Origin: Bacteroidota bacterium
Lineage (GTDB): Bacteria; Bacteroidota; Bacteroidia; B-17B0; Aurantibacillaceae
DNA length: 64,000 nt
Direction of reading: 5' to 3'
Assembly: GCA_030684395.1 (NCBI GenBank)
Contig: JAUXTT010000024.1
Location: forward strand, 1 to 64,000
Below are positions 2,180 through 52,701 of this stretch, one piece after another. Each line of letters starts with the position of its first letter. Position 1 is the stretch's first letter. The notes under the pieces were generated by a model that had not been told where the DNA came from, made no database searches, and worked only from the letters and a program-made list of their open reading frames with translations. The translations under genes were made by a program, and so were the position numbers.

Positions 2180-3715
2180 ATGCAAGCAACTGTAACACTA
2201 AGCGAACAAGAAACGCTTCGCCGTCAAAAACTGGAAGAATTAAGAAAAGCGGGTATCAATCCTTATCCAGCTGAAGAATTTTTGGTAAACGTTACTGCTG
2301 CCGATATAAAGGAAAACTACGAGAGAGACAAACTAAATTATAAAACCATCAGTATTGCGGGTCGTTTAATGAGCGTGCGTGATATGGGTAAAGCTGCTTT
2401 TGCAGAAATTCAGGATGCTACAGGTCGTATTCAGATCTACGTTAAACGTGATGAAATTTGCCCCGGAGAAGATAAAACCTTGTACGATCTTGTTTGGAAA
2501 AAGTGCTTAGACCTTGGAGATATCTTAGCCATTGAAGGATATGTGTTCACTACAAAAGTAGGTGAGATCTCAATCCATGTTACCACTTTCAAGATGTTGA
2601 GCAAATCATTGAAGCCCTTACCTGTTGTTAAAACAGATGATCAGGGAAATGCTTATGATGAAGTTTCTGATCCTGAGTTCCGTTACAGACAACGTTATGT
2701 GGACTTGATCATTAATCCTAAAGTAAAAAAGACATTCGAGCTTCGTACCAAATTAATGAACACTATACGTACTTTCTTAAATGAGAAAGGTGCTTTGGAA
2801 GTGGATACTCCGGTATTACAATCTATTCCGGGTGGAGCTACTGCTCGTCCGTTCATGACACATCACAATGCATTGGATATGCCTTTGTATTTACGTATTG
2901 CAAATGAATTATACTTAAAGCGTTTGATAGTTGGTGGTTTTGATTTTGTTTATGAGTTTGCGCGTAACTTCCGTAACGAAGGAATGGACAGAACACATAA
3001 TCCTGAATTTACCATTCTTGAATTTTATGCTGCTTACCGCGATTATTTCTGGATGATGAATACAACTGAGAAATTGCTGGAGAAAATTGCAATGGATCTT
3101 CATGGTACAACTGATGTGCAGGTTGGTGATAAAACCATCAGCTTTGCCGCACCTTTCAAACGTATCTCTATTTTCGGGGCTATTAAAGAGCATACTGGTT
3201 TTGATGTAAGCAAAATGAACGAAGATGAGTTACGTGATGTATGTAAAAAATTACACCTCGAAGTAGATGCATCGATGGGTAAAGGGAAACTGATAGACAC
3301 TTTGTTTGGAGAGAAATGTGAGCACACTTATATTCAACCAACTTTTATTATTGACTATCCGATTGAGATGAGCCCGCTTACCAAAAAGCACCGTACAGAA
3401 GAAGGATTGGTAGAGCGTTTTGAGTTAATGATCAACGGTAAAGAAATTGCAAATGCATACAGTGAGTTGAACGACCCAATTGACCAGCGCGAACGTTTTG
3501 AAGAGCAGGTAAAATTAATGGAGCGTGGTGATGACGAAGCTATGTTTATTGATTACGACTTTTTACGTGCATTGGAATACGGTATGCCACCAACAGCAGG
3601 TATTGGGATCGGGATCGATCGTTTGTGTATGTTGATGACCAACCAGCCTTCTATACAGGATGTGTTGTTCTTCCCTCAAATGCGCCCCGAAGTGAATAAT
3701 AATAACGCAGAATAA
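2180..3715 (+). CDS. lysS: Lysine--tRNA ligase (class II LysRS)
   Basis: This cytosolic enzyme charges tRNA-Lys with lysine using ATP. The 511-residue protein has the usual length and order. An N-terminal anticodon-binding OB-fold occupies about residues 55-160, followed by the class II catalytic core. Motif 2 is visible as FRNEGMDRTHNPEFT (starting at residue 264). Motif 3 is visible as GIGIGIDRLCML (about residues 475-486), followed by the LysRS hallmark DVLFFPQMRPE near the C-terminus. The ATG start is the first in frame and sits behind a -7-like box. The gene stands alone, divergent from the pseudouridine synthase gene and followed by an intergenic inverted repeat. Confidence 0.98.
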   Translation: MQATVTLSEQETLRRQKLEELRKAGINPYPAEEFLVNVTAADIKENYERDKLNYKTISIAGRLMSVRDMGKAAFAEIQDATGRIQIYVKRDEICPGEDKTLYDLVWKKCLDLGDILAIEGYVFTTKVGEISIHVTTFKMLSKSLKPLPVVKTDDQGNAYDEVSDPEFRYRQRYVDLIINPKVKKTFELRTKLMNTIRTFLNEKGALEVDTPVLQSIPGGATARPFMTHHNALDMPLYLRIANELYLKRLIVGGFDFVYEFARNFRNEGMDRTHNPEFTILEFYAAYRDYFWMMNTTEKLLEKIAMDLHGTTDVQVGDKTISFAAPFKRISIFGAIKEHTGFDVSKMNEDELRDVCKKLHLEVDASMGKGKLIDTLFGEKCEHTYIQPTFIIDYPIEMSPLTKKHRTEEGLVERFELMINGKEIANAYSELNDPIDQRERFEEQVKLMERGDDEAMFIDYDFLRALEYGMPPTAGIGIGIDRLCMLMTNQPSIQDVLFFPQMRPEVNNNNAE

Positions 3716-3727
3716 TTACAGCACAGA

Positions 3728-3902
3728 TTTTTTAACCACATAGATTCAAGAATAGTTTTATTTAGAAGAGATAGAAACCTTGTTTAACACATAGTATCTA
3801 TGTAAAAAGCACCCACCTGACCGATGGGTCTTTCGGGCAGGAAACTTTTTTATTAAAACTCTACCGCTACAAAAAACCTATGTATCTATGTGGTTAAAAA
3901 AA
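3728..3902. repeat. Long imperfect inverted repeat (AACCACATAGAT class)
   Basis: The left arm, TTTTTTAACCACATAGATTC, is mirrored by a right arm ending ATCTATGTGGTTAAAAAAA, about 175 bp apart end to end. The interior holds a second short hairpin (ACATAG/CTATGT) and a GC-rich block (CACCTGACCGATGGGTC). A related pair of arms lies at 53893-54026. It fills the gap between lysS and the next gene and has no coding potential. Confidence 0.7.
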
Positions 3903-3933
3903 GACAATGTTCACTAAGCAAATAATGTTTTTT

Positions 3934-4476
3934 ATGAAACCTTTATTCAGAAATATCTTTTTGTTTGCTACAGCAAGTGTTGTTTTATACGCTTGTTCAG
4001 GAGAGCCTGAAACTATTATACCTCCAAAAGAACAGGTGTTTAAAGGTTTTCATTATGCATTGGATTCTATTTTACAAAAGAAAGAGGGCATTGTTCACGG
4101 TGTTGAATTAAGTGAGCCTTTGAATGATGTAAAATCGAAAGAGAAAAAGAAACCGGATGAACTGGATGTAGACTATTGTTTATACAATTACAAAGTTGAT
4201 TCACTTACCTCCTACTCTATTGCTTATTCATTTGTAAATGATTCATTGGATGAAATGGAAGTGCAAATCAACAGCACGAGCCAGGATGAGGGAGCCACCA
4301 TTTTAGCGAACATCAAAAAATATTACACCGAAAAATATACCGCTCCTTTAATGGATAAAGGTATTTATGTTTTTAATTGTTTCGACTCCAAAAAGAAAAA
4401 CTTTAAGATCTCCTTAACGGACAATAGTACAACGGAGACGGGAGTAATTAATATGTTGGTTTATCGGGAGAAATAG
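3934..4476 (+). CDS. Predicted lipoprotein of unknown function
   Basis: The protein (about 180 residues from this start) begins with a basic residue and a hydrophobic stretch ending in the lipobox-like LYAC followed by SGEPE, so it is probably exported and lipid-anchored. An alternative upstream ATG at 3907 would add nine residues. I chose 3934 because MKPLFRN places the charged residues directly before the hydrophobic core. The mature part is rich in Lys, Asp and Ser. No domain or function is recognised. The gene is followed by a strong bidirectional terminator. Confidence 0.75.
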   Translation: MKPLFRNIFLFATASVVLYACSGEPETIIPPKEQVFKGFHYALDSILQKKEGIVHGVELSEPLNDVKSKEKKKPDELDVDYCLYNYKVDSLTSYSIAYSFVNDSLDEMEVQINSTSQDEGATILANIKKYYTEKYTAPLMDKGIYVFNCFDSKKKNFKISLTDNSTTETGVINMLVYREK

Positions 4477-4497
4477 AAATTCAGAATACTTTAAAAC

Positions 4498-4529
4498 AAA
4501 AATAGCAGGACAATTGTCCTGCTATTTTT
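4498..4529. terminator. Bidirectional intrinsic terminator
   Basis: A perfect 32-bp palindrome centred on CAATTG, with the stem AATAGCAGGAC, is flanked by A3 and T5 tracts. It lies between two convergent genes (ending at 4476 and 4554), so it can end transcripts from both sides. Confidence 0.9.
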
Positions 4530-4553
4530 GTTTTGTGACTATTATACCACTTT

Positions 4554-5573
4554 TTACTTTATCGGAATATAAATTTTAGTATTCCATTTAGCTGTATCCG
4601 CTTCTTTCATTGGATCGGTAATGTACTCTTCCCAACTGTTGCCAGCCACTTCCATTTTGTTCTCTCCAATGTGTTTGTACATAGCTTCATAAGAAGATTG
4701 CATTTTTGTATAATCACCAAAATAATCGTATACTAATACTTTCTGAGGTTCACATTTACAGAATTTTACTTTTTTATTCTTTGTTTGTTTCACAGCACCG
4801 CTCACTGGTATGCCCGGAGAAAACACAAGGAAATTTTTAGCTTCATCGTATCTTTCGTTTATAGAAAAAGGAGCTCCTGTATACTCAAGTTTTTGCGCTT
4901 TCATTTCCGCTTCTAACTCTGCGTAAATTTTTCCGTATTTTTCTCCTATTACTTTTGGATCAACCACACAAGAATCAGTCATACATAAACAATTCATTTC
5001 CTTTGATTCTTCCACTGTAAATTTCATTGCAGAAGAGCTTGCTGCGGGTTCGTTTACACCCAGCTTTTCAATACCTTCTAAACCACCTTCAAAATCAGGT
5101 GCCATCATACCATCCACAAATAATCCCATGATTCTCATATAAAATGGAAATTCCATTTTCATTGACCAAAACACTTCAGTTCCTTTGTCTTTTTCGAAAA
5201 ACTTAAAAACAACCGGGGTTGGATCATAATCTGCAAATACAAGATCCATATAAACAGAGTCGGTTCCAAATACTTCGGTAATAGTCATTTTTCCTTCGCC
5301 CATTTTATCGTTTCCTTTCCAACTATACCATGCGCCTTTTCCTTCAGCAGGCTCTCCGGAATAAGTATAAACAGCGTTAGTATCCAGCTTAGCCCAGGTC
5401 ATCCATTTTGGCCATTTTTGCAATACTGTTACTTTTTCAAATACTGTTTCTTTGGATATTGGCATTACGCGGGTTCTACTAACCACTACACTCCCCGGTA
5501 AAAAAGCGGAGACAATAAGTACCAATCCAACAAGTACTACTAAAAAGATTAAAATTTTCTTTAATATTCTCAT
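4554..5573 (-). CDS. Membrane-anchored SRPBCC / GyrI-like effector-binding protein
   Basis: This 339-residue protein has one N-terminal membrane segment (about residues 5-26). A SRPBCC (START/polyketide cyclase-like) domain follows at about residues 30-170, recognisable from the pattern around KETVFEKV, WPKWMTW and YSWKGN. The C-terminal half (about 185-339) resembles the GyrI-like/AraC effector-binding fold, with the terminal pattern WNTKIYIPIK typical of that fold. The combination is widespread in Bacteroidota. The ligand is unknown, and no DNA-binding domain is present, so a transcription-factor role is not supported. It converges on the lipoprotein gene. Confidence 0.75.
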   Translation of the reverse strand: MRILKKILIFLVVLVGLVLIVSAFLPGSVVVSRTRVMPISKETVFEKVTVLQKWPKWMTWAKLDTNAVYTYSGEPAEGKGAWYSWKGNDKMGEGKMTITEVFGTDSVYMDLVFADYDPTPVVFKFFEKDKGTEVFWSMKMEFPFYMRIMGLFVDGMMAPDFEGGLEGIEKLGVNEPAASSSAMKFTVEESKEMNCLCMTDSCVVDPKVIGEKYGKIYAELEAEMKAQKLEYTGAPFSINERYDEAKNFLVFSPGIPVSGAVKQTKNKKVKFCKCEPQKVLVYDYFGDYTKMQSSYEAMYKHIGENKMEVAGNSWEEYITDPMKEADTAKWNTKIYIPIK

Positions 5574-5651
5574 GTTTTATTTTTTTAATTTGAACGAAAG
5601 TACAACGAAAAAATGATATCCAATAAACGAATTTATTTTTCGTGCATACTA

Positions 5652-8600
5652 TTATTTTACGACGGTAATATGACCAACTTTCGTTATTTTATCACCCGAA
5701 TATGCCTCGGCACTTATTTTAAAAACATAAACATCTTCCTGCACGGGATCTCCTTTATAATTGCCATCCCAAAAAGAATCAAGGTCCTTTGCTTCAAACA
5801 ATTTTTGTCCCCACCTGTTGTATACATAAATCTGGATCTTTTTAATTCCAAATCCTTCAGGCTTCCAATATTCATTAGTAAAATCTCCATTCGGGCTAAA
5901 AGCAATAGGAACGTATAATGCAAATTCTTGTGAAACGAAAACAGTAACTGTATCTGAATTTTCACAACCATATTGATTTGTTCCCTGAAAAATATAGGTA
6001 GTGGTTACAGTTGGTGTTGCTATTGGTGCCATACAGCCGGTGCAATTTAACGTAGCAGTATTGCTCCAGAAAAAAGATGTAGCGTTTGTAAAACCATTAA
6101 TTACAGCAGCATCTTCTACATCTATGGTTGTATCCTGCCCCGCAAAAATAATCGGCAAGGGATTTACTACAACTCTTACCGTGTCCGTTTCAGGGCACAG
6201 TCCATTATAGGATGCAGTGTAAAGATAATTGGTAGTTACTAATGGAGTAGCAGTTGTAAATGAAGTATTAATTGATGACAGAGTACTTCCCGGAGCCCAC
6301 TCATGTGTTGCTCCACCAACACCAACCAAACCAACTGATTCGCCAATACAAATCGTATCATTTAGTCCTGCATCAGGAATTATTTTTGGAAGCACAGTTA
6401 CTGTTAAGGTATCAAAATCAGTACAACCATTTGTACTACCCGTAACAAAATACAAGTGTGTGCTGGTTGGATTAACCGTAACATTTGAATTTGTTGGCAG
6501 ATCATTTGAAACAAAATTAGTAGCATTATTTGCCCACACATAAGTATCTGCACCGGTAGCCTGTATGTTAACAGTTTCTCCTTCACAGATAGTTACATCA
6601 TTTGGTGTTAATTGAATGGTTGGAGCCGGTGTAACAGAAACCGCTACAGTCGCTGTTCCCGAACAGGTAGGAGTTGATCCTACAACAGTATAGGTAGTTG
6701 CAACTGTTGGCGAAGCAATTACGGTAGGACCACTTAATGTATTAAGAGAAGATGAAGCCGCCCATGTGTATGAAGTAGCTCCGGTCACAGTTATTGAAGT
6801 AGTTGTTCCAGTACACACTGCCGACGAAACCGAAGTTACCGTAAGTGTTAATGGTGGTAACAAACTTACTGTAATTGCGGCAGAAGCCGGACATCCTACC
6901 AATGTTCCGTTTACTGTATAAATGGTAGTTGCTGTTGGTGTTGCTATAACTGATGCTCCGGTGCTTACATTTAAACTTCCTGCAGGTGTCCAGGTATAAG
7001 TATCAGCACCACTTGCATCAAGTGTGCTTGTATATCCCGGACAAACAGAAGATGCTGAAGCAACTAAATTAATAACAGGATTGGTAACAGTAACAGTAAG
7101 TGTAGCAATTCCCACACCACAAGTATTCGCTTCAGTTACTTGCAAAACACCGTTTGCTACAGCAAAATCTACCGTAATAGAATTAGTAAGCGCGCCCGAT
7201 GAAATAGTTGCTCCTCCATTTGCAGTCCAGGTATATGTTGAGCCTGCATTGCTTGTTACACTGTAAGTTGTAGCTAATGTATTTGCACACAAAGCTGTAT
7301 TACCCACAATTGAAGGTGTTGCAGGAGCAAGATTAACGGTAACAGGAAATTGTACAGGCGTTCCCGAACCACAAGATGCTGTTTCAATAACCGTTACATT
7401 TCCGCTATTAGTTCCAAAATCAACGGTGATAACACTAGTTGTTTGCCCTGAAACAATTATAGCGCCGGCAGGAACAGTCCAATTATAAGTACTTCCAGCT
7501 GTATTGGTAACGGAATAAGTAATTGCTGTTGCTCCTGAACAAACAGGGCTTGTTCCTGTAATAGCAGAAGTTACAGGTGCTGCTATAAGTGTAACAGCAG
7601 TTGTTGCCTGAGGGCTTGCACCACAAGTACTTGATTCGATAACTCCAACATTTCCTGCTGTAGCACCAAGATTCACAACAATGCTATTTGTTCCCTGACC
7701 ACTAACAATTGTTGCTCCTGCGGGAACAGTCCACGCATATGTATTTGATCCGTTTAATGTAACTGAATAAGTTAATCCTGTTGTATTTGCACATGCGCTC
7801 GAAGGCCCTGTAATTGTTGGTAATACAGGCCCTGTTGTTGTAGAAACAATTGTAGTTACGGGAGTTCCTGATCCACAGGCAGAAGTTTCGGTTACACTTA
7901 TTGTTCCTGCCGTTGCTCCAAAATCTACTGTAATACTATTGGTATTTTGACCTGAAGTAATAGTTGCTCCTCCTGGAACAGTCCACAGGTAAGTACTTCC
8001 TGTTGTATTAACAACGCTGTAAATTTGTCCGCTTGCATTTACACAAACACTTACGGGTCCTGTAATGGCAGATGTTACAGGCGTAGAGCTTGTATTCACA
8101 ACTATATTTTCGGGAGTGCCTGTTCCGCAGGTAGAAGTTTCCGCTACACTTATAGTTCCCGCTGTAGCTCCAAAATCTACTGTAATGCTATTTGTGTTTT
8201 GTCCTGAAACAATTGTTACACCTGCAGGAACAGTCCAGTTATAAGTACTTCCAACCGTATTGGTAACCGAGTAGGTTATTGCAGTTGCATTCGGGCAAAC
8301 AGGTGTAGGCCCTGATATAGCTGATGTTACAGGTATACTGTTTATCGTAATGGCCAGCGAACCATTTCCTGATCCGCAGTTTGATGCTTCGGCAACATCA
8401 ATGTTTCCTCCGCTTGCACCAAAATCTACTGTGATACTATTTGTGCCTTGCCCTGAGGCAATAGTTGCACCTGCGGGTACCGACCAATTGTAAGTATTTC
8501 CGATTGTATTTGTAACCGAATAGGTAACAGCAGTTGCATTGGGACATACAGATGCAGCCCCTGAAACAATAGGAGTAAGTGTAACTGTGTTCGTAGAAAC

Positions 8601-45886: not shown

Positions 45887-46082
45887 AATATTTTTGTTAA
45901 AGAGCCACGAAATTAAGATTTTACCTGTTCAAAACCCCGAAAAAATGACAGGCGGTATTTCATGAACCCCGCATAATCAGTCGGTTTACCTCAATTTTCG
46001 ATGAATTGTTAAAAATAAACGTTAAAATTCTTTATGATAACGATAAATTAACGTAAATTCAGTCTTATTAATAATTTATATC

Positions 46083-46406
46083 ATGGACATACGAATTTCG
46101 AAAATGATAAGTAAAACATTGCTGCTGATGTTTCTTATTGCAGGGTTTGCTGCGCAGGCGCAGGATAAAGATAAATTTAACTTAGGTGAGAATGAGCGCA
46201 CAGAAACCGGACCTCTGTTAATTTGGTCAGGCGTAGGCTTTGTAGTTGCTTTCACGCTTTTACTGATCTTTAAGATCAGATACGACAAAAAGAAGAAAAT
46301 AGAAATGCAGGAGCAAATGAAAGCAATGTCGAGCAGACCAAGAACACCTCACACACCGGGTCAAGGGCGTGCAACTACATCAAGAACCCGCGGTGCGACT
46401 TCTTAG
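46083..46406 (+). CDS. Small single-pass membrane protein of unknown function
   Basis: A 107-residue protein with a signal peptide (ending AAQAQ) and a second hydrophobic segment (about residues 43-62, LLIWSGVGFVVAFTLLLIFK). A strongly basic cytosolic tail with KKKKIEMQEQMKAM and an Arg/Thr/Pro-rich end follows. The topology places a short stretch (DKDKFNLGENERTE) outside. Its 3' end overlaps the rlmB 3' end by 27 bases on the other strand. No family is recognised. Confidence 0.65.
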   Translation: MDIRISKMISKTLLLMFLIAGFAAQAQDKDKFNLGENERTETGPLLIWSGVGFVVAFTLLLIFKIRYDKKKKIEMQEQMKAMSSRPRTPHTPGQGRATTSRTRGATS

Positions 46407-47156
46407 TATTTCAAACAAAACTATCCCTGTAGCTACCGAAACATTCAATGATGAAATGCTTCCGGCCATTGGGATCTTAATTTGATCATCACTACGCTTT
46501 AAATATTCACCGGAGATTCCGTTCTCTTCGGACCCCATTATTACTGCCAAAGGTTCAGAGTAATCAACGGTATAAATGGTATTCTCCGTTTTTTCATGAC
46601 AAGCAAAAATCTTCAATCCTGAAGATTTCAAATAATCAATAGTATCTTTCAAATTATCTTCTCTGCAAACCGGAATTCTGTGTAACGCACCTGCAGAGGT
46701 TTTGATGGCATCAGCATTTATCTGAGCGGCACCACGTGAAGGAATAATTATAAAATCAACACCTGCACATTCAGCACTTCTGGCAATTGCACCAAAATTA
46801 CGTACATCGGTCACTCTGTCTAAAATAAGTACAAATGGAATCTTACCTTTCTCAAAAACATCCTGTAAAAGATCTTCTGCTTTATAATAAGTAACGTTTG
46901 CTAAGTATGCTATCACACCCTGATGGTTTGCATTGCTTACACGGCGCAGTTTTTCGGGTGGAACAAACTGATAGGGAATTTCTTTTCCAACCAATTCTTT
47001 TCTTAATTGCCCGAAAAGATCATTGGACAAACCTCTTTGTAAAAGTATTTTATCAATTTCCTTTCCGGCTTTAATAGCTTCTATTACGGCACGAATGCCA
47101 TAGATGCAATTCTCTTCTTTTTCTTCGCCCTTTTCTCTTTCCTGACTGTAATGCAT
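46380..47156 (-). CDS. rlmB: 23S rRNA (guanosine-2'-O-)-methyltransferase RlmB (TrmH/SpoU family)
   Basis: This SAM-dependent enzyme adds a 2'-O-methyl group to a guanosine of 23S rRNA. The 258-residue protein has the N-terminal substrate-binding domain (IYGIRAVIEAI, NHQGVIAYL). The knotted SPOUT domain follows, with RNFGAIARSAECAGVDF, IMGSEENGIS and IPMAGSISSLNVSVATGIVLFE. The start ATG overlaps the stop of the preceding PHB depolymerase-like gene (TAATG), so the two are coupled. Confidence 0.94.
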   Translation of the reverse strand: MHYSQEREKGEEKEENCIYGIRAVIEAIKAGKEIDKILLQRGLSNDLFGQLRKELVGKEIPYQFVPPEKLRRVSNANHQGVIAYLANVTYYKAEDLLQDVFEKGKIPFVLILDRVTDVRNFGAIARSAECAGVDFIIIPSRGAAQINADAIKTSAGALHRIPVCREDNLKDTIDYLKSSGLKIFACHEKTENTIYTVDYSEPLAVIMGSEENGISGEYLKRSDDQIKIPMAGSISSLNVSVATGIVLFEILRSRTAGS

Positions 47157-48622
47157 TACCTGATGATGATTTTTTTGTTTAGCAATTTTGTAGCTCCGGA
47201 AACCTCTACCACATATACTCCCGCACTTATTGATTCCGGCAGCTGCAAAGATACACTTTCATCGGAAGTAATTTGCCTAAACATCTCATTTCCGAGCAGA
47301 TCGTAAATTCGGATAGAAGTATTTTGCTCTGTAATTCCTTTAATAACAAGGTTTCTATATTCGGTAGAGTAAATAGAAGAAACCGCACTACCGCTCATTT
47401 CCTCTATTCCGACACAGGTACAGAGATTTACCCACAACTCTTCCGGGCCATTAAGACATCCTGCTGGAGTAATTTCATGTACTGCAACATACCCGGGATT
47501 GGTTCCAAAATTCGCCAATATTGAGCTGCTACCCTGCCCGCTCGCAACCATACCGGCAACAGGCACTTTCCAGTCATAAGTACTTCCCACATTTGATTGA
47601 GTTGAATATGGAATAGATGTTGCACCGGCAGCAACTCCGCTTGATCCACTGATCACGAGGGTGTTTGCATCAGCATCTATCAATCCAAAAAACTTAGCAG
47701 CGTGGTAGGTAGAATGAAAATTAATATCATAAGAATACGTTGCAGTTTGACCACCTTGTTGAGGGCAAGAACCTGTATCAACAGCAATGGCATGACCAAA
47801 ACCACTTATTATGTAGCTTCTCACCACTTCTGTGCCGGGCCCTGTGTGAAACGAATTCATTACAACCTGCGTATTGCCGGCATAATCAGTTAACAAACCA
47901 TCATAAGTATCATCGGTATTATGAAGTGCAGTCCATTGTTTAATTGACTCTGTTAGATTATTTATATTAACTACAGGATCCATGGTTCCGTGAAAAAGCA
48001 CCATTTTTGGATAAGCGCCCGTGTAAGTAGGATTTTGTGCTGTAACCAAAGCTGCCCATTGAGCAGGAGTTTTTGTAGTGAAACCATTCATTGCAGCAGA
48101 AGCTTCGAAAGCAGTTGTTGCCGCTTTATACGGACCACCTGCCATAACTGCCCCGCCCGAATATACTTCGGGATAGGTAGCGCAAACCACTTCGGTCATA
48201 GCTGCCCCGGCTGAAAGACCTGTTGCAAATACTTTTGAATTATCAATTGTATAATCCGTTTTCATTTGATCTACCATTTGTTTGATAGATAAATTCTCGC
48301 CCTGATCTTTATCCTGATCAGCAGTTAGAAACCAGTTGAAACATGTTTGAGCATTGTTAGCAGATTTTTGCTCGGGATATACTACATAAAATTTATAAAG
48401 ATCAGCCAGTTTATTCCAACCCGTTTGATCGGCAGCCTGTTGAGCAGTTTGCGTGCAACCGTGCATTACCACCACCAATGGAGCCGTACCCACAATACCC
48501 GAAGGAACATATTTGTACATATTTAAATTACCGGGGTTGCTACCGAAAGATGCAACGGATGTTAGTTGGGCCTTGGTGGCGAGAGAGAGTAATAGTATAA
48601 TGAGAGTAAAAGTGTTTTTCAT
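47156..48622 (-). CDS. Secreted PHB depolymerase-family esterase with PKD-like module and T9SS type A domain
   Basis: The 488-residue product has a signal peptide (ending ATKAQ). An alpha/beta hydrolase of the esterase PHB depolymerase family occupies about residues 30-320, with MHGCTQTAQQAADQTGW and the nucleophile S137 in GLSAGAAM. A PKD-like module of about 85 residues follows (STYDWKVPVAG). It is of the same type as the units of the giant adhesin at 5.6-11.1 kb. The C-terminal about 75 residues (VIKGITEQNTS to GVYVVEVSG) are a type A T9SS sorting domain. The real substrate may be a polyester, a feruloyl ester or another ester. Confidence 0.9.
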   Translation of the reverse strand: MKNTFTLIILLLSLATKAQLTSVASFGSNPGNLNMYKYVPSGIVGTAPLVVVMHGCTQTAQQAADQTGWNKLADLYKFYVVYPEQKSANNAQTCFNWFLTADQDKDQGENLSIKQMVDQMKTDYTIDNSKVFATGLSAGAAMTEVVCATYPEVYSGGAVMAGGPYKAATTAFEASAAMNGFTTKTPAQWAALVTAQNPTYTGAYPKMVLFHGTMDPVVNINNLTESIKQWTALHNTDDTYDGLLTDYAGNTQVVMNSFHTGPGTEVVRSYIISGFGHAIAVDTGSCPQQGGQTATYSYDINFHSTYHAAKFFGLIDADANTLVISGSSGVAAGATSIPYSTQSNVGSTYDWKVPVAGMVASGQGSSSILANFGTNPGYVAVHEITPAGCLNGPEELWVNLCTCVGIEEMSGSAVSSIYSTEYRNLVIKGITEQNTSIRIYDLLGNEMFRQITSDESVSLQLPESISAGVYVVEVSGATKLLNKKIIIR

Positions 48623-48803
48623 CTGGTGAAGGTTGAAGAGTAAAGATACGAATTTCGAAAGAAGTGAAAGGCGGAGATATGAAGAATAAAATAGTAAATT
48701 AGCGTTTATAAAATTTAAGTGAACTTTGAGAATTCAACATAAAATTTTGATAAACGAAATATACCTTCAAGTATGTATTCATTAGTTTAAGAATAAAAAG
48801 AAT

Positions 48804-49520
48804 ATGATAGTAGATAAACCATGGATTTCAGGGCCCAGAGAATTACTTGTTCATGGATTACAGCACCTTAGTTTAAACACAGGATTTGATTACCGAATTG
48901 CAATGATTTCGATTGATAATTCTGTTGAGTTGATGATAAAAACCTATTTAGGTTTACCTAAGAGAATTACAAAAATTGATGGTATTACAAGAAAAAAGTA
49001 CGAGGAAATAACATCGACATTCCCAAATCTATTAGATGGATTAGAAGAATTCGCGCTGGATAGATTGGACGGAATAGATTTAGGAGATATTGAGTGGTTT
49101 CATCGCCTAAGAAATCAATTATATCATGATGGCAATGGAATAACAGTAGAGAAAGAAAAAGTTGAAGCCTATGCAGAAATAGCTAAAATTCTTTTTGCGA
49201 GTTTATTTAGTGTTGAGATTGAAGACACTGGAAGTGAAACTCTTCATCATAGTTTGGTTGGTGAATTTATTAAAGAATGGGCAAACTTAGAAAAACAAAC
49301 TCCTCTTGCTAGTGGAAAACTTCTGATTCCAATGTACAGACTAAAGGAGATGTTATCTAATGGTGAGTTGTCAAATATACAAGCAACAAAGTTTGATGAA
49401 ATAAGGAAATTTAGAAATGACTTAGTTCATGGAATGAGTTCACCATCTAAGATGGAACTGGAAAAGTACTTATTAGAATTAAGAGAAATTAGAAAAACAC
49501 TAAACAAAAACATTAATTAA
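48804..49520 (+). CDS. Double HEPN-domain protein
   Basis: A 238-residue, mostly helical protein with two copies of the HEPN motif R-x4-H. The first is R103-NQLY-H108 in RLRNQLYHDGNG, and the second is R204-NDLV-H209 in IRKFRNDLVHG. HEPN domains with this motif are often metal-independent RNases used in toxin-antitoxin and defence systems, although others only bind nucleotides. Here neither activity is proven. The N-terminal part (SGPRELLVHGLQH, MISIDNSVELMIKTYLG, LGDIEWFH) appears in a widespread uncharacterised family. The gene is 20 bp before a DUF4145 gene and lies in DNA that looks more AT-rich than the surroundings. Confidence 0.75.
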   Translation: MIVDKPWISGPRELLVHGLQHLSLNTGFDYRIAMISIDNSVELMIKTYLGLPKRITKIDGITRKKYEEITSTFPNLLDGLEEFALDRLDGIDLGDIEWFHRLRNQLYHDGNGITVEKEKVEAYAEIAKILFASLFSVEIEDTGSETLHHSLVGEFIKEWANLEKQTPLASGKLLIPMYRLKEMLSNGELSNIQATKFDEIRKFRNDLVHGMSSPSKMELEKYLLELREIRKTLNKNIN

Positions 49521-49540
49521 AACTAAGAAAGGTCTGTCTC

Positions 49541-50170
49541 ATGAAAAACATAAAATTATCAGGAAATTTCTCAAGTGGGCAAGGACCAGTAATAAACTTA
49601 AGGTGTCCAATTTGTGGGCATAACGGAACCTTTGAAAGAATAGGAGATACCGATCTTTGTGACATAAATATTGCTATTTGGTTTGGACAAAGAAAGTGCC
49701 CTAACTCAAATTGTAGAGGACATATTTTTTATATACAAAAGCAAGATAAAACACTCTATACGTATCCACCTGAAATTATTAACTTTAATAAAGATGGAAT
49801 TCCAGACAATGTCTTATTTGCATTTGACGAGGCTGTGAAATGTCATTCAAATTCTTGTTTTATCGCGTCAGCGATTATGATTCGAAAAACTCTTGAAGAA
49901 ATATGTGTAGACCGTGGTTCAAAAGGAGATAATCTAAAAAAAAGACTTCAAGATTTAGGCGCAAAGATTTTAATTCCAAAGGAATTAATTGAAGGGATGG
50001 ATGAATTAAGGCTCTTGGGAAATGATGCAGCACATATTGAATCACATACTTTTGAGGAAATTGGAAAAGAGGAAATAGAAATATCTATAGAATTCACAAA
50101 GGAAATATTAAAAGGCGTTTATCAATATGAAGGACTTCTTTCCAAACTAAGAGGACTCAAGAAATCATAA
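49541..50170 (+). CDS. DUF4145 (HEPN-like) protein with an N-terminal zinc ribbon
   Basis: The 209-residue protein starts with four cysteines in two pairs (C22-x2-C25 in RCPICGHNG and C53-x4-C58 in KCPNSNC), a likely zinc ribbon. A DUF4145 domain ends in the motif LRLLGNDAAHIE (residues 156-167), with R157 and H165. DUF4145 is a HEPN-superfamily domain often found in or near restriction and other defence genes. It is probably translated with the upstream double-HEPN gene. Its stop is only ten bases from the stop of a truncated EamA remnant on the other strand. Confidence 0.8.
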   Translation: MKNIKLSGNFSSGQGPVINLRCPICGHNGTFERIGDTDLCDINIAIWFGQRKCPNSNCRGHIFYIQKQDKTLYTYPPEIINFNKDGIPDNVLFAFDEAVKCHSNSCFIASAIMIRKTLEEICVDRGSKGDNLKKRLQDLGAKILIPKELIEGMDELRLLGNDAAHIESHTFEEIGKEEIEISIEFTKEILKGVYQYEGLLSKLRGLKKS

Positions 50171-50180
50171 CAGCCAAACC

Positions 50181-50257
50181 CTACCCCCTCACCTTCCCAA
50201 ACTTCATATTTTTTAACTTCGTTTTGAACACCGTGTTCAACACGATCACAAAAAGAC
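50181..50257 (-). pseudogene. Decayed second copy of the 3' end of the EamA transporter gene
   Basis: On the minus strand this stretch encodes VIVLNTVFKTKLKNMKFGK followed by VRG and a stop. This is almost the same as the end of the intact EamA protein (NAVFKTKLKNMKFGKVKG, 51295 onward), with the stop codon at the equivalent position. By eye the DNA is about 80 percent identical over 70 bases, and most differences are synonymous. Similarity stops abruptly at about 50257. It marks the left boundary of the toxin-antitoxin insert. Confidence 0.8.
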
Positions 50258-50292
50258 TATTTTTTTGTAAATCTTTAGAAAATTCCTTTCGA

Positions 50293-50309
50293 AACATTTT
50301 GAAAATGTT
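50293..50309. promoter_or_regulatory. Operator palindrome of the higBA promoter
   Basis: AACATTTTGAAAATGTT has perfect eight-base arms around one central base. It covers the TTTG box of the promoter. This is the usual position for autorepression by the antitoxin or the complex. Confidence 0.65.
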
Positions 50310-50328
50310 ACCTAATTAGCTAACTTTG
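50298..50328 (+). promoter_or_regulatory. Promoter of the higBA operon
   Basis: TTTG (50298-50301), 19 bases and TAACTTTG (50321-50328) match the Bacteroidota consensus. The toxin start GTG lies only five bases after the -7 box, so the mRNA is expected to be leaderless or nearly so, unless a different start is used. Confidence 0.7.
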
Positions 50329-50332
50329 CTTT

Positions 50333-50710
50333 GTGGAGAAAAGTACTACCCGAGAAATATTTTATTACAAGAACTATTATCTTGACTTCTTTAAAAAACT
50401 AAAGCCGGAAGTTAAGAAAAAGTTCAACTGGACATTGCAACTAATTTCTGTAATTGAAAGAGTCCCCGAAAAATATTTTAAGCACTTAACAGGAACAAGC
50501 GGGCTTTACGAAGTTAGGGTTGAAGTGGGATCCGATATTTACAGAGTGTTTTGCTTCTTTGATAAAGGTCAATTAATAATATTGGTTAACGGCTTTCAAA
50601 AGAAAACACAAAAGACACCTGCGAACGAAATAGAACTCGCAGAGAAGTTAAAAAAACAATACTTCAATGAACTAGCCGAAAGCGAATCAAGAGTACAAAA
50701 AAAGAAATAA
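50333..50710 (+). CDS. higB: HigB-like toxin (RelE/Gp49 superfamily)
   Basis: A 125-residue protein of the phage-derived Gp49/HigB type within the RelE superfamily; relatives cleave mRNA on the ribosome. Its features are the N-terminal FYYKNYYLDFFKKLK and the core GLYEVRVEVGSDIYRVFCFF, followed by LVNGFQKKTQKTP with the conserved FxKKTxKTP. The start GTG is the only candidate start before the conserved region. The antitoxin gene follows three bases after the stop, toxin first as in higBA. Confidence 0.88.
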   Translation: MEKSTTREIFYYKNYYLDFFKKLKPEVKKKFNWTLQLISVIERVPEKYFKHLTGTSGLYEVRVEVGSDIYRVFCFFDKGQLIILVNGFQKKTQKTPANEIELAEKLKKQYFNELAESESRVQKKK

Positions 50711-50713
50711 GTC

Positions 50714-51022
50714 ATGAGCAAAAAAATAAATAAAAACCTTACCTCATTTGCTGAACATATAGAGCAGCAATACGGCAAACGCGGCACAAAAAAACGTGAA
50801 GAATACGAAGAAGGATTTGAAGCTTTTAAACTAGGGGCTATGCTACAGGAACTTCGTAAAGGACAAGGTATGACACAAGAGCAACTTGCAGACAAGTGCG
50901 GCACAACCAAAACTTACATTTCCCGCATTGAAAATAATGCGAGTGACATTCGGCTTTCTACACTTATGAGAATTATTAGCGAAGGGCTTGGTGGGCACTT
51001 AAAGTTAAGTGTTGATATGTAA
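50714..51022 (+). CDS. higA: HigA-like antitoxin (XRE helix-turn-helix)
   Basis: The 102-residue protein has an N-terminal helical region that presumably binds the toxin. A Cro/cI-type helix-turn-helix follows at about residues 41-95, with MTQEQLADKCGTTKTYISRIE. It should neutralise the HigB-like toxin and repress the shared promoter at the palindrome upstream. It lies in tight operon with higB. Confidence 0.88.
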   Translation: MSKKINKNLTSFAEHIEQQYGKRGTKKREEYEEGFEAFKLGAMLQELRKGQGMTQEQLADKCGTTKTYISRIENNASDIRLSTLMRIISEGLGGHLKLSVDM

Positions 51023-51065
51023 TTAAAGGTCTTTTTGTAATTTAAGTAATAACAACACAATCAAA

Positions 51066-51293
51066 ATGGCACGAATAGCTGGCATACAATTCATATATAA
51101 CGAAGAAGGTGTTCGAACGCATGTAATCGTAGATCTTAAAAAGTATGGTGAAAAAATCAAACCATACTTGCAAGAAATTGGCGCAGTTGATGAAGATGAG
51201 TTTGAAAAAAAATGGGCAAAAGGTGGATTAACAGTAGAAAAGCTAAGAAAATCAGTACATAAAACTATTCGCAAAGTTCCGAAAAAACAATAA
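51066..51293 (+). CDS. Small protein, orphan antitoxin-like, of unknown function
   Basis: The 75-residue protein begins MARIAGIQFIYNEEGVRTH with VIVDLKKYGEKIK, a layout resembling small antitoxins (a strand, a basic turn and an acidic helix, then helix EDEFEKKWAKGG). No toxin gene follows; its stop is one base from the stop of the EamA gene on the other strand. It is 43 bp after higA and may belong to the same transcript. The family is not identified with confidence. Confidence 0.6.
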   Translation: MARIAGIQFIYNEEGVRTHVIVDLKKYGEKIKPYLQEIGAVDEDEFEKKWAKGGLTVEKLRKSVHKTIRKVPKKQ

Positions 51294-51294
51294 G

Positions 51295-52197
51295 CTACCC
51301 CTTCACCTTCCCGAATTTCATATTCTTCAACTTAGTCTTAAACACTGCATTCAAAACGATGACAACAAGAATAATTACCGTTGCAATGTAAAACTCTGTG
51401 GTCATTTGTTCGCTTTGTTTCCAAAGCAGGTATGCGAAGATGATACCGTACACTGTTTCTAGGTTAACAGTAAGTGTAATGGTAAACGGGCTGAGTTTTT
51501 TTAAGAGATTGGTGCTTGCCAAAAAAGGGAAGGCGGTTCCTACAATCGCAAAGATGATGAGAAAGGTCCAGTCAGTTCCCGAGATGTTGAAGAAGGCTGC
51601 ATCCAGAGCTCCGGTAAACAAAAGGTAAAGGCTCAAACAAATAAAACCTCCTGCTAATTCCACCAAAGTAATAACCGGAGAAGGAATGTCGCGCACCAAT
51701 AATCCGTTCCAAACAGTAAAGAGAGAAGATGTGAAAGCCGCCAGTACACCAAATAAAATTCCCAGTTTGTATTGTGTCTCGATCTGGAAGATCATAGCAA
51801 TTGCCAAAATGATAATAAAACCAAATACCATTTCGTACCAAAGCACTTTTCGTTTGTAAAAAATGGGTTCGATAATGGAAGTAAACAAAGTTCCGGTTGC
51901 AAAAGCAGCAAGGGTTACCGATACATTGGAAACCTTAATAGCATGGTAAAAACAAAACCAGTGAAAAGCAATAACAGCGCCTGTTCCAAAGAGCATAGTG
52001 AACTGTTTCGCGGAGAGTTTGATCTTTTGTTTGATGTAAATATTATAGATGATAATAGCGATGACAGTGATTCCAATGCGGTACCATACAAGTTGTAAAG
52101 CTTGTAAGGAAATTTGTTTTCCAAGGATTGGTGACCAGCCCCAAATGAAGACGATTAGATGTAATAATAAGTGATGCTTTGTAATGGATTTAAACAC
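51295..52197 (-). CDS. EamA/DMT-family transporter
   Basis: A 300-residue integral membrane protein with about ten transmembrane segments in two EamA halves (each about 125-130 residues). Visible motifs include FIWGWSPILGKQISLQAL at the start and VELAGGFICLSLYLL and YGIIFAYLLW later. It probably exports or imports a small metabolite; the substrate is unknown. Its last 70 bases are duplicated at 50181-50257, so this gene carries the regenerated 3' end of an insertion site. Confidence 0.9.
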   Translation of the reverse strand: MFKSITKHHLLLHLIVFIWGWSPILGKQISLQALQLVWYRIGITVIAIIIYNIYIKQKIKLSAKQFTMLFGTGAVIAFHWFCFYHAIKVSNVSVTLAAFATGTLFTSIIEPIFYKRKVLWYEMVFGFIIILAIAMIFQIETQYKLGILFGVLAAFTSSLFTVWNGLLVRDIPSPVITLVELAGGFICLSLYLLFTGALDAAFFNISGTDWTFLIIFAIVGTAFPFLASTNLLKKLSPFTITLTVNLETVYGIIFAYLLWKQSEQMTTEFYIATVIILVVIVLNAVFKTKLKNMKFGKVKG

Positions 52198-52239
52198 GGG
52201 AACAAAGATGCGGAATTTTCGCTTATCTCAGAATCCAAT

Positions 52240-52701
52240 TTAGTTTAATCTTAGCGATAGCTTTTCTTTGTCGGTTTCTTCCGCTGATAACAAACCCTTG
52301 CCAAATTCCTTGAGGCGGGCAGCGTAACGGGATTTAACACGGTCGGAGATGGGAATAGGATTTCCTTCCTCATCGATGCGGACAAATTTTACGTTGGTGT
52401 GAGTTACTATTTCCCGTTCGCCGGTATACACATTGTGTTTACGAACTTCTATATAGAGTTCGATGGAAGAAGTTCCGAATTTGATAACACGTCCGTAGAT
52501 CTTCAGAATATTTCCAACCTTCACCGGCTTTTTAAAGATCAGCTCATCAAACTTAATAGTAACCAAATGCGGTGTATCACACAATTGTGAAGCGTAAGAA
52601 GCCGCCGCATCATCAATGAGTGAAATAAGTGTGCCTCCAAACATATTGTTGTGCACGCCAATATCAAAAGCTTTGCAGATATAAGTTGTGATCAGTTCCA
52701 T
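52240..52701 (-). CDS. Acyl-CoA thioesterase (hotdog fold, 4HBT/YciA-like)
   Basis: The 153-residue protein has the hotdog motif HNNMFGGTLISLIDDAAAS at about residues 18-36, followed by VTIKFDELIFKKPVKVGNIL and a charged C-terminus (GKGLLSAEETDKEKLSLRL). The N-terminal catalytic Asp/Asn position is present. It should hydrolyse an acyl-CoA thioester in the cytosol. It abuts the metZ-type gene stop without a gap and is translated with it. Confidence 0.88.
   Translation of the reverse strand: MELITTYICKAFDIGVHNNMFGGTLISLIDDAAASYASQLCDTPHLVTIKFDELIFKKPVKVGNILKIYGRVIKFGTSSIELYIEVRKHNVYTGEREIVTHTNVKFVRIDEEGNPIPISDRVKSRYAARLKEFGKGLLSAEETDKEKLSLRLN

Follow-up and report, generated by a model that had tools for sequence, protein, structure and literature searches.

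Few effectors are used as widely in bacterial immunity as HEPN RNases. These RNases work as dimers with composite sites (PMC13405049). Integron-borne HEPN proteins with a proposed dormancy role were already described in 2013, when Anantharaman et al. proposed the integron cassette HEPN family, represented by PDB ID: 3jrt, to consist of dormancy-inducing RNases (PMC3710099). Integrons in archaea and transfer between the domains have been reported (PMC9668308), and small anti-phage systems are stored in integron cassettes (PMC12409362).

The 2 genes considered here, A and B, lie in a stretch of 64,000 nucleotides from contig JAUXTT010000024.1 of a Bacteroidota bacterium, which we call the window; their features are collected in Table 1. 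Gene A shares with the 3jrt family the carriage of HEPN on integron cassettes, and differs from it in its 2 HEPN halves and in its occurrence in many phyla and in archaeal bins. A profile of A has no match to 3jrt among all PDB chain sequences at E up to 1, and 3jrt is absent from the structural matches of A, an absence that excludes nothing. Four other described groups are also close to one gene or the other. Gene B is a member of DUF4145 (PF13643). The C half of A is distantly related to this family, but scores under the curated cut-off and carries R-x4-H instead of R-x-x-G-N-x-x-x-H; the N half of A is not matched by it. The HEPN parts of the CRISPR-associated RNases Csm6/Csx1 are the closest PADLOC matches of A (E = 2e-5 to 7e-5), but A has no CARF sensor domain, its 2 HEPN-type halves filling the whole protein. 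The N domain of A has the same fold as the HEPN-MNT toxin-antitoxin proteins (MntA-HepT, Z ~11), although no nucleotidyltransferase adjoins A in the window. The anti-phage protein PD-T7-4 in PADLOC is matched by B at E = 2.9e-10 and 38 bits over 110 residues, covering profile positions 50-154 of 211.

Our reading, to which we give a probability of roughly 55%, is that A is a self-contained double-HEPN RNase, serving as a conditional effector of defense or dormancy and traveling as a mobile accessory gene, with B as an optional HEPN companion. The original prediction had placed 2 adjacent HEPN-type proteins at 48863-50039. Two adjacent genes are indeed found, both of them intact ORFs, with both ends of that interval trimmed relative to the reading frames at 48804-49520 and 49541-50170. 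The HEPN assignment holds for both products, for B by its DUF4145 match and for the C half of A mainly by profile.

Table 1. Features of genes A and B and of the adjoining repeat, in window coordinates
Feature	Position	Strand	Basis or remark
Gene A, double-HEPN protein, uncatalogued family	48804..49520	+	ORF, 238 aa
N-terminal HEPN domain of A, residues 1-138	48804..49217	+	Alignment, predicted structure, structural matches
R103-N-Q-L-Y-H108 motif of A, core-helix end	49110..49127	+	Alignment, predicted structure
C-terminal HEPN-like domain of A, residues 140-238	49221..49517	+	Profile matches, predicted four-helix fold
R204-N-D-L-V-H209 motif of A, R/N/H invariant	49413..49430	+	Alignment, predicted structure
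Gene B, zinc ribbon + DUF4145 (HEPN clan)	49541..50170	+	ORF, 209 aa; Pfam, PHROG, PADLOC matches
Zinc-ribbon cysteines of B: C22, C25, C53, C58	49604..49714	+	Sequence
R157-LLGNDAA-H165 of B, standard DUF4145 signature	50009..50035	+	Comparison of collected DUF4145 proteins
82-nt degenerate (80%) direct-repeat copy of EamA-type transporter 3' end (51295-51376)	50181..50262	.	Just past B

Whole A matches no Pfam, NCBIfam, or PADLOC family at a meaningful score. The Pfam HEPN models all fall under their cut-offs and align to the C half, NCBIfam returns nothing, and the N domain alone has no relevant Pfam match in any of 18 members; a PDB sequence search with A gives chance matches only. A scan of 84,980 genomes yielded 22 candidate loci. 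Full-length relatives make up 19 of them; of the others, one has the C domain alone in common (L023) and 2 are truncated (L021 and L022). Further homologues are on 4 Leptospira plasmids, in one more genome, and on 2 viral contigs; phage records contain no A. Homologues occur in archaea as well as in Bacteroidota, Proteobacteria, Nitrospirota, and Planctomycetota; those from archaea are in metagenome bins, in which misbinned contigs are possible. Almost identical A proteins are encoded in L006 and L007, assigned to different archaeal phyla, and the gammaproteobacterial copies are scattered over separate parts of a tree whose forks are mostly moderately supported. The tree and the near-identity of the L006 and L007 proteins fit horizontal spread.

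Some individual relatives have surroundings or architectures of their own. In the Methanosarcinales bin L007, a HEPN and nucleotidyltransferase-like gene pair, called by eye and by a weak DUF4145 match, adjoins the A homologue on the opposite strand (3704-4559). On the 2 contigs classed as viral (L031 and L032), one homologue is close to tail-fibre-like genes, and the other is in a serine-recombinase element, adjoining a 404-aa protein that is HEPN-like by eye and has no Pfam match. L056 encodes at 1483-2124 a diverged relative of the N domain (E ~1e-20) with a different C-terminus that has no R-x4-H. The N domain of A may belong to a wider family.

The AlphaFold2 model of whole A has a mean pLDDT of 82.8, mostly above 85 in the N half, and a pTM of 0.60, with the relative placement of the 2 halves uncertain. 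For residues 1-138, nearly all VIA-align rows with Z of at least 8 are HEPN structures, in a range of Z 8-13 with a maximum of 13.1, and they include AF0298, HI0074, MntA-HepT, Csm6, and AbiV; unrelated chains mostly score Z ~6. In the predicted structure the R103-H108 segment closes the core helix 93-108, and an invariant acidic residue, D38, is within the predicted helix 27-50. Modeled alone, the C half is a four-helix bundle with a pLDDT of 79, in which R-N-x-x-x-H ends the third helix. Its structural matches are led by the HEPN-type entries 1wwp and 1wty at Z = 8.6 and 8.1, with others near 7, a score that unrelated bundles also reach. When a small set was searched with a profile of the C domain, the DUF4145 proteins L081, L028, and the L003 neighbor matched at 3e-6 to 1e-5. 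Foldseek gives weak E-values for both halves, and a comparison of the N and C domain profiles gave nothing convincing as an internal repeat. Non-HEPN folds, the outcome that would count against the original prediction, are not what these models suggest: the N half is a clearly predicted HEPN fold, and the C half is probably HEPN as well, by its sequence profile and with moderate fold support.

The genes around the A homologues mostly run in one direction, have unrelated functions, and are separated by gaps of 100-200 nt. We looked for cassettes by the criterion of a GTTRRRY-type box before the gene and the complementary box where the gene ends. Of 20 homologue loci, 13 have the integron R' core, a GTTRNRY box, directly upstream of A, versus ~1.4 expected by estimate, and a complementary box is at the end of A in 8 loci (shuffle p of 0.005 or less). 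Exact 10-nt box pairs enclose A in L008, L009, L014, and L016, and such pairs delimit further cassettes in L002 and L004, in the latter as a row. Altogether 27 exact pairs were observed versus 6.1 in shuffled sequence; the reverse-strand control of this test is identical by construction. A search for paired boxes inside a single inter-gene site found none, but is an unsuited test, as the 2 boxes of one site belong to different cassettes. Of 25 source records, 8 have a match to integron integrase models above the curated cut-off; in L002 an integrase-like gene ends ~0.8 kb upstream of A. Rfam has no match on the A homologue loci. Most A homologues are in cassette-like settings without a fixed partner, and A is usually a single-gene unit.

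Gene B scores 62.8 bits against DUF4145, where the cut-off is 23.1 (E = 3.2e-17), and also matches PHROG 1305 (E = 6.5e-20). Its closest solved relative is the DUF4145 protein in entry 9y9c (E = 0.007 to 0.0005), and no B was found in viral contigs. The zinc ribbon that had been claimed for it, and an R157/H165 pair 7 residues apart, are seen in the sequence; the cysteines are spaced C22-x2-C25 and C53-x4-C58, and paired CxxC are also found in the DUF4145 neighbors of L003 and L013. The 7-residue spacing had been taken as the mark of a sensing or inhibitory partner to a catalytic A, and this part of the original prediction has to be given up. R-x-x-G-N-x-x-x-H, which is R-x7-H, is the norm for the family: of the 19 DUF4145 proteins collected with the GN..H core, 17 show it and two have K for R. 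In this pattern the G of GN sits at the canonical R position and the R lies one helical turn ahead of it, so the spacing characterizes the family and is no sign of lost activity; we rule it out as an indication of decay or of sensing. Since R-x7-H is usual in DUF4145, and the catalytic motif of that family is given as mostly conserved (PMC3710099), the contrast between a catalytic and a sensing member of the pair is unfounded. Displaced residues still build an active site in other HEPN RNases, as in retron type IX (PMC13405049).

In the window itself, no recombination box pair around A or A plus B was found in 46000-52500, so this copy is not a visible cassette. Its nearest kin in the tree are the Flavobacteriaceae cassette copies of L002, L003, and L004. 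Gene A is absent from all same-family genomes among 100 relatives. In the sister species G002, the interval from the EamA-type transporter to the TrmH-type methyltransferase is ~300 nt and is without A, B, and the Gp49/HTH pair. The GC content of A and B is ~32% versus 37-43% in the flanking genes. Because of the family relatives that have no A, the gap in G002, and the low GC, we conclude that A and B are a horizontally acquired accessory block in the window.

Around A the window has genes of PHB-depolymerase-like, DUF4145, Gp49-like, and HTH type. In G002 the PHB-depolymerase-like gene, the only gene in the ~300 nt there, is cut down to a signal peptide and a sorting domain (contig C11, ~5048-5345, L097). 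The Gp49-like and HTH genes are in a second accessory module, at 50333-51293 of the window, consisting of a Gp49-like toxin (50333-50710), an HTH antitoxin-like protein (50714-51022), and a 75-aa ORF (51066-51293). This module is flanked by the stray copy of the transporter end at 50181-50262 and by the intact end at 51295-51376; the stray copy was imported or has decayed, because it is the intact end that is closer to the sister species.

It is possible, if on the unlikely side, that A and B are unrelated cargo sharing a variable chromosomal site by accident, as the site also carries the toxin-antitoxin-like Gp49/HTH pair and is empty in the sister species, and A is usually alone. That account has difficulty with the operon-like spacing of the 2 genes, and with the recurrence of a DUF4145 neighbor in 2 distant genomes. 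The recurrence is a zinc-ribbon DUF4145 gene adjoining A downstream in L003 and upstream in L013, each being the sole DUF4145 match of its genome. DUF4145 is above the cut-off in 8 of 24 searched source records and present in 18 of 148 Bacteroidota genomes, and 2 adjacent cases among ~46 neighbor positions are therefore far above expectation, where the baseline is the genome-wide frequency and not the frequency among integron cassettes. Because the neighbor recurs in L003 and L013, a functional link between A and B is possible; because A is without a DUF4145 neighbor in most loci, B is an optional companion of A at best.

A closer bond, which we regard as doubtful, would be a 2-component HEPN system, with B recognizing nucleic acid or regulating, A cutting RNA, and both required in this organism. 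The placement of A and B on one strand with a 20-nt gap is what such a system would look like, and so is the zinc-ribbon DUF4145 gene beside A in L003 and L013, given how infrequent the family is in Bacteroidota. However, the other A loci have no such neighbor, the partners in L003 and L013 are separate genes on opposite sides of A at ~100-160 nt, and the 3 B-like proteins are 26-28% identical over their full length.

The 2 R-x4-H motifs of A had been claimed at residues 103-108 (RNQLYH) and 204-209 (RNDLVH) and are exact in the sequence. R103, N104, H108, R204, N205, and H209 are invariant in an alignment of 18 homologues, and both R-x4-H motifs are present in 22 of 23 full-length homologues, the 23 being these 18 with L008, L026, L031, L032, and L019 added. 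Across homologues, the identity to window A is 57-88% in the N domain and 14-56% in the C domain. Because 22 of 23 keep both motifs despite C-domain identity as low as 14%, the motifs are, as judged from the alignment, under selection and not there by chance; a lack of conservation in homologues, which would have spoken against the claim, did not occur. The sole member of the 23 without the C-terminal motif is L019, with REKIVL in its place. This Anaerolineaceae homologue (4995-6011, 338 aa) continues after the loss of the C-terminal R/H into a coiled coil and then a CPLCGQP...H zinc-hook-like segment. A third R-x4-H match in A, RELLVH at residues 12-17, was dropped as a motif, since its R varies among homologues; its H17 is invariant. 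It is improbable that A is a HEPN protein without catalysis that binds RNA or acts as a scaffold: binding without cutting has been described for some HEPN families (PMC3710099), but R and H of both motifs are invariant across bacteria and archaea, which is hard to square with a mere binder.

Very improbable is a classical type II toxin-antitoxin system with A as the toxin and B as its protein antitoxin, for although 2 short genes are side by side and HEPN toxins are known in such pairs, including among the structural matches of A, A is a stand-alone cassette without a conserved partner in most homologue loci, a DUF4145 neighbor is found beyond the window in L003 and L013 only, the gene order differs in L013, and B belongs to a HEPN family with a mostly conserved catalytic motif (PMC3710099). 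The original prediction of a toxin-antitoxin-like or defense arrangement keeps its second half, as a defense or mobile context is likely, and loses the strict pair, because A is normally encoded alone and usually as a single-gene cassette.

We return to the reading of A as a self-contained RNase, and outline how it might work. The 2 HEPN halves would pack within one chain, forming a composite active site from the R/H of each. The enzyme would be silent until triggered by infection or stress, and would then cut RNA, either tRNA or mRNA, with the result that growth or phage production stops. Because A is used as a one-gene cassette, either its inhibition would be built in or its trigger would be external; no trigger domain is recognizable in A. 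The conserved N half would probably be the fixed part, concerned with substrate and core fold, and the fast-evolving C half, which retains its own R-x4-H, would be the likelier sensing or regulatory part. As a separate zinc-ribbon DUF4145 HEPN protein, B may cooperate with A, possibly by contact, and would be dispensable in most genomes.

A bolder extension, which we offer as speculation and think rather unlikely in full, is that A founds a family, as yet without a name, of double-HEPN RNases that are encoded by single genes and pair with themselves. Integron cassettes would carry this family between bacteria and archaea, and it would serve as a portable switch for dormancy or against phages. 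Its members would act alone or with separately mobile zinc-ribbon DUF4145 genes tuning the trigger, and the pair in the window would be one such combination frozen into an operon.

Gene A is under 1 kb, has no obvious obligatory partner, and is found in distant bacteria and, in bins, archaea. If our reading is true, it would be a compact model for asking how a HEPN enzyme of one chain is silenced and switched on, and the near-frozen N half against the fast-changing C half would offer a testable split between core and regulation.
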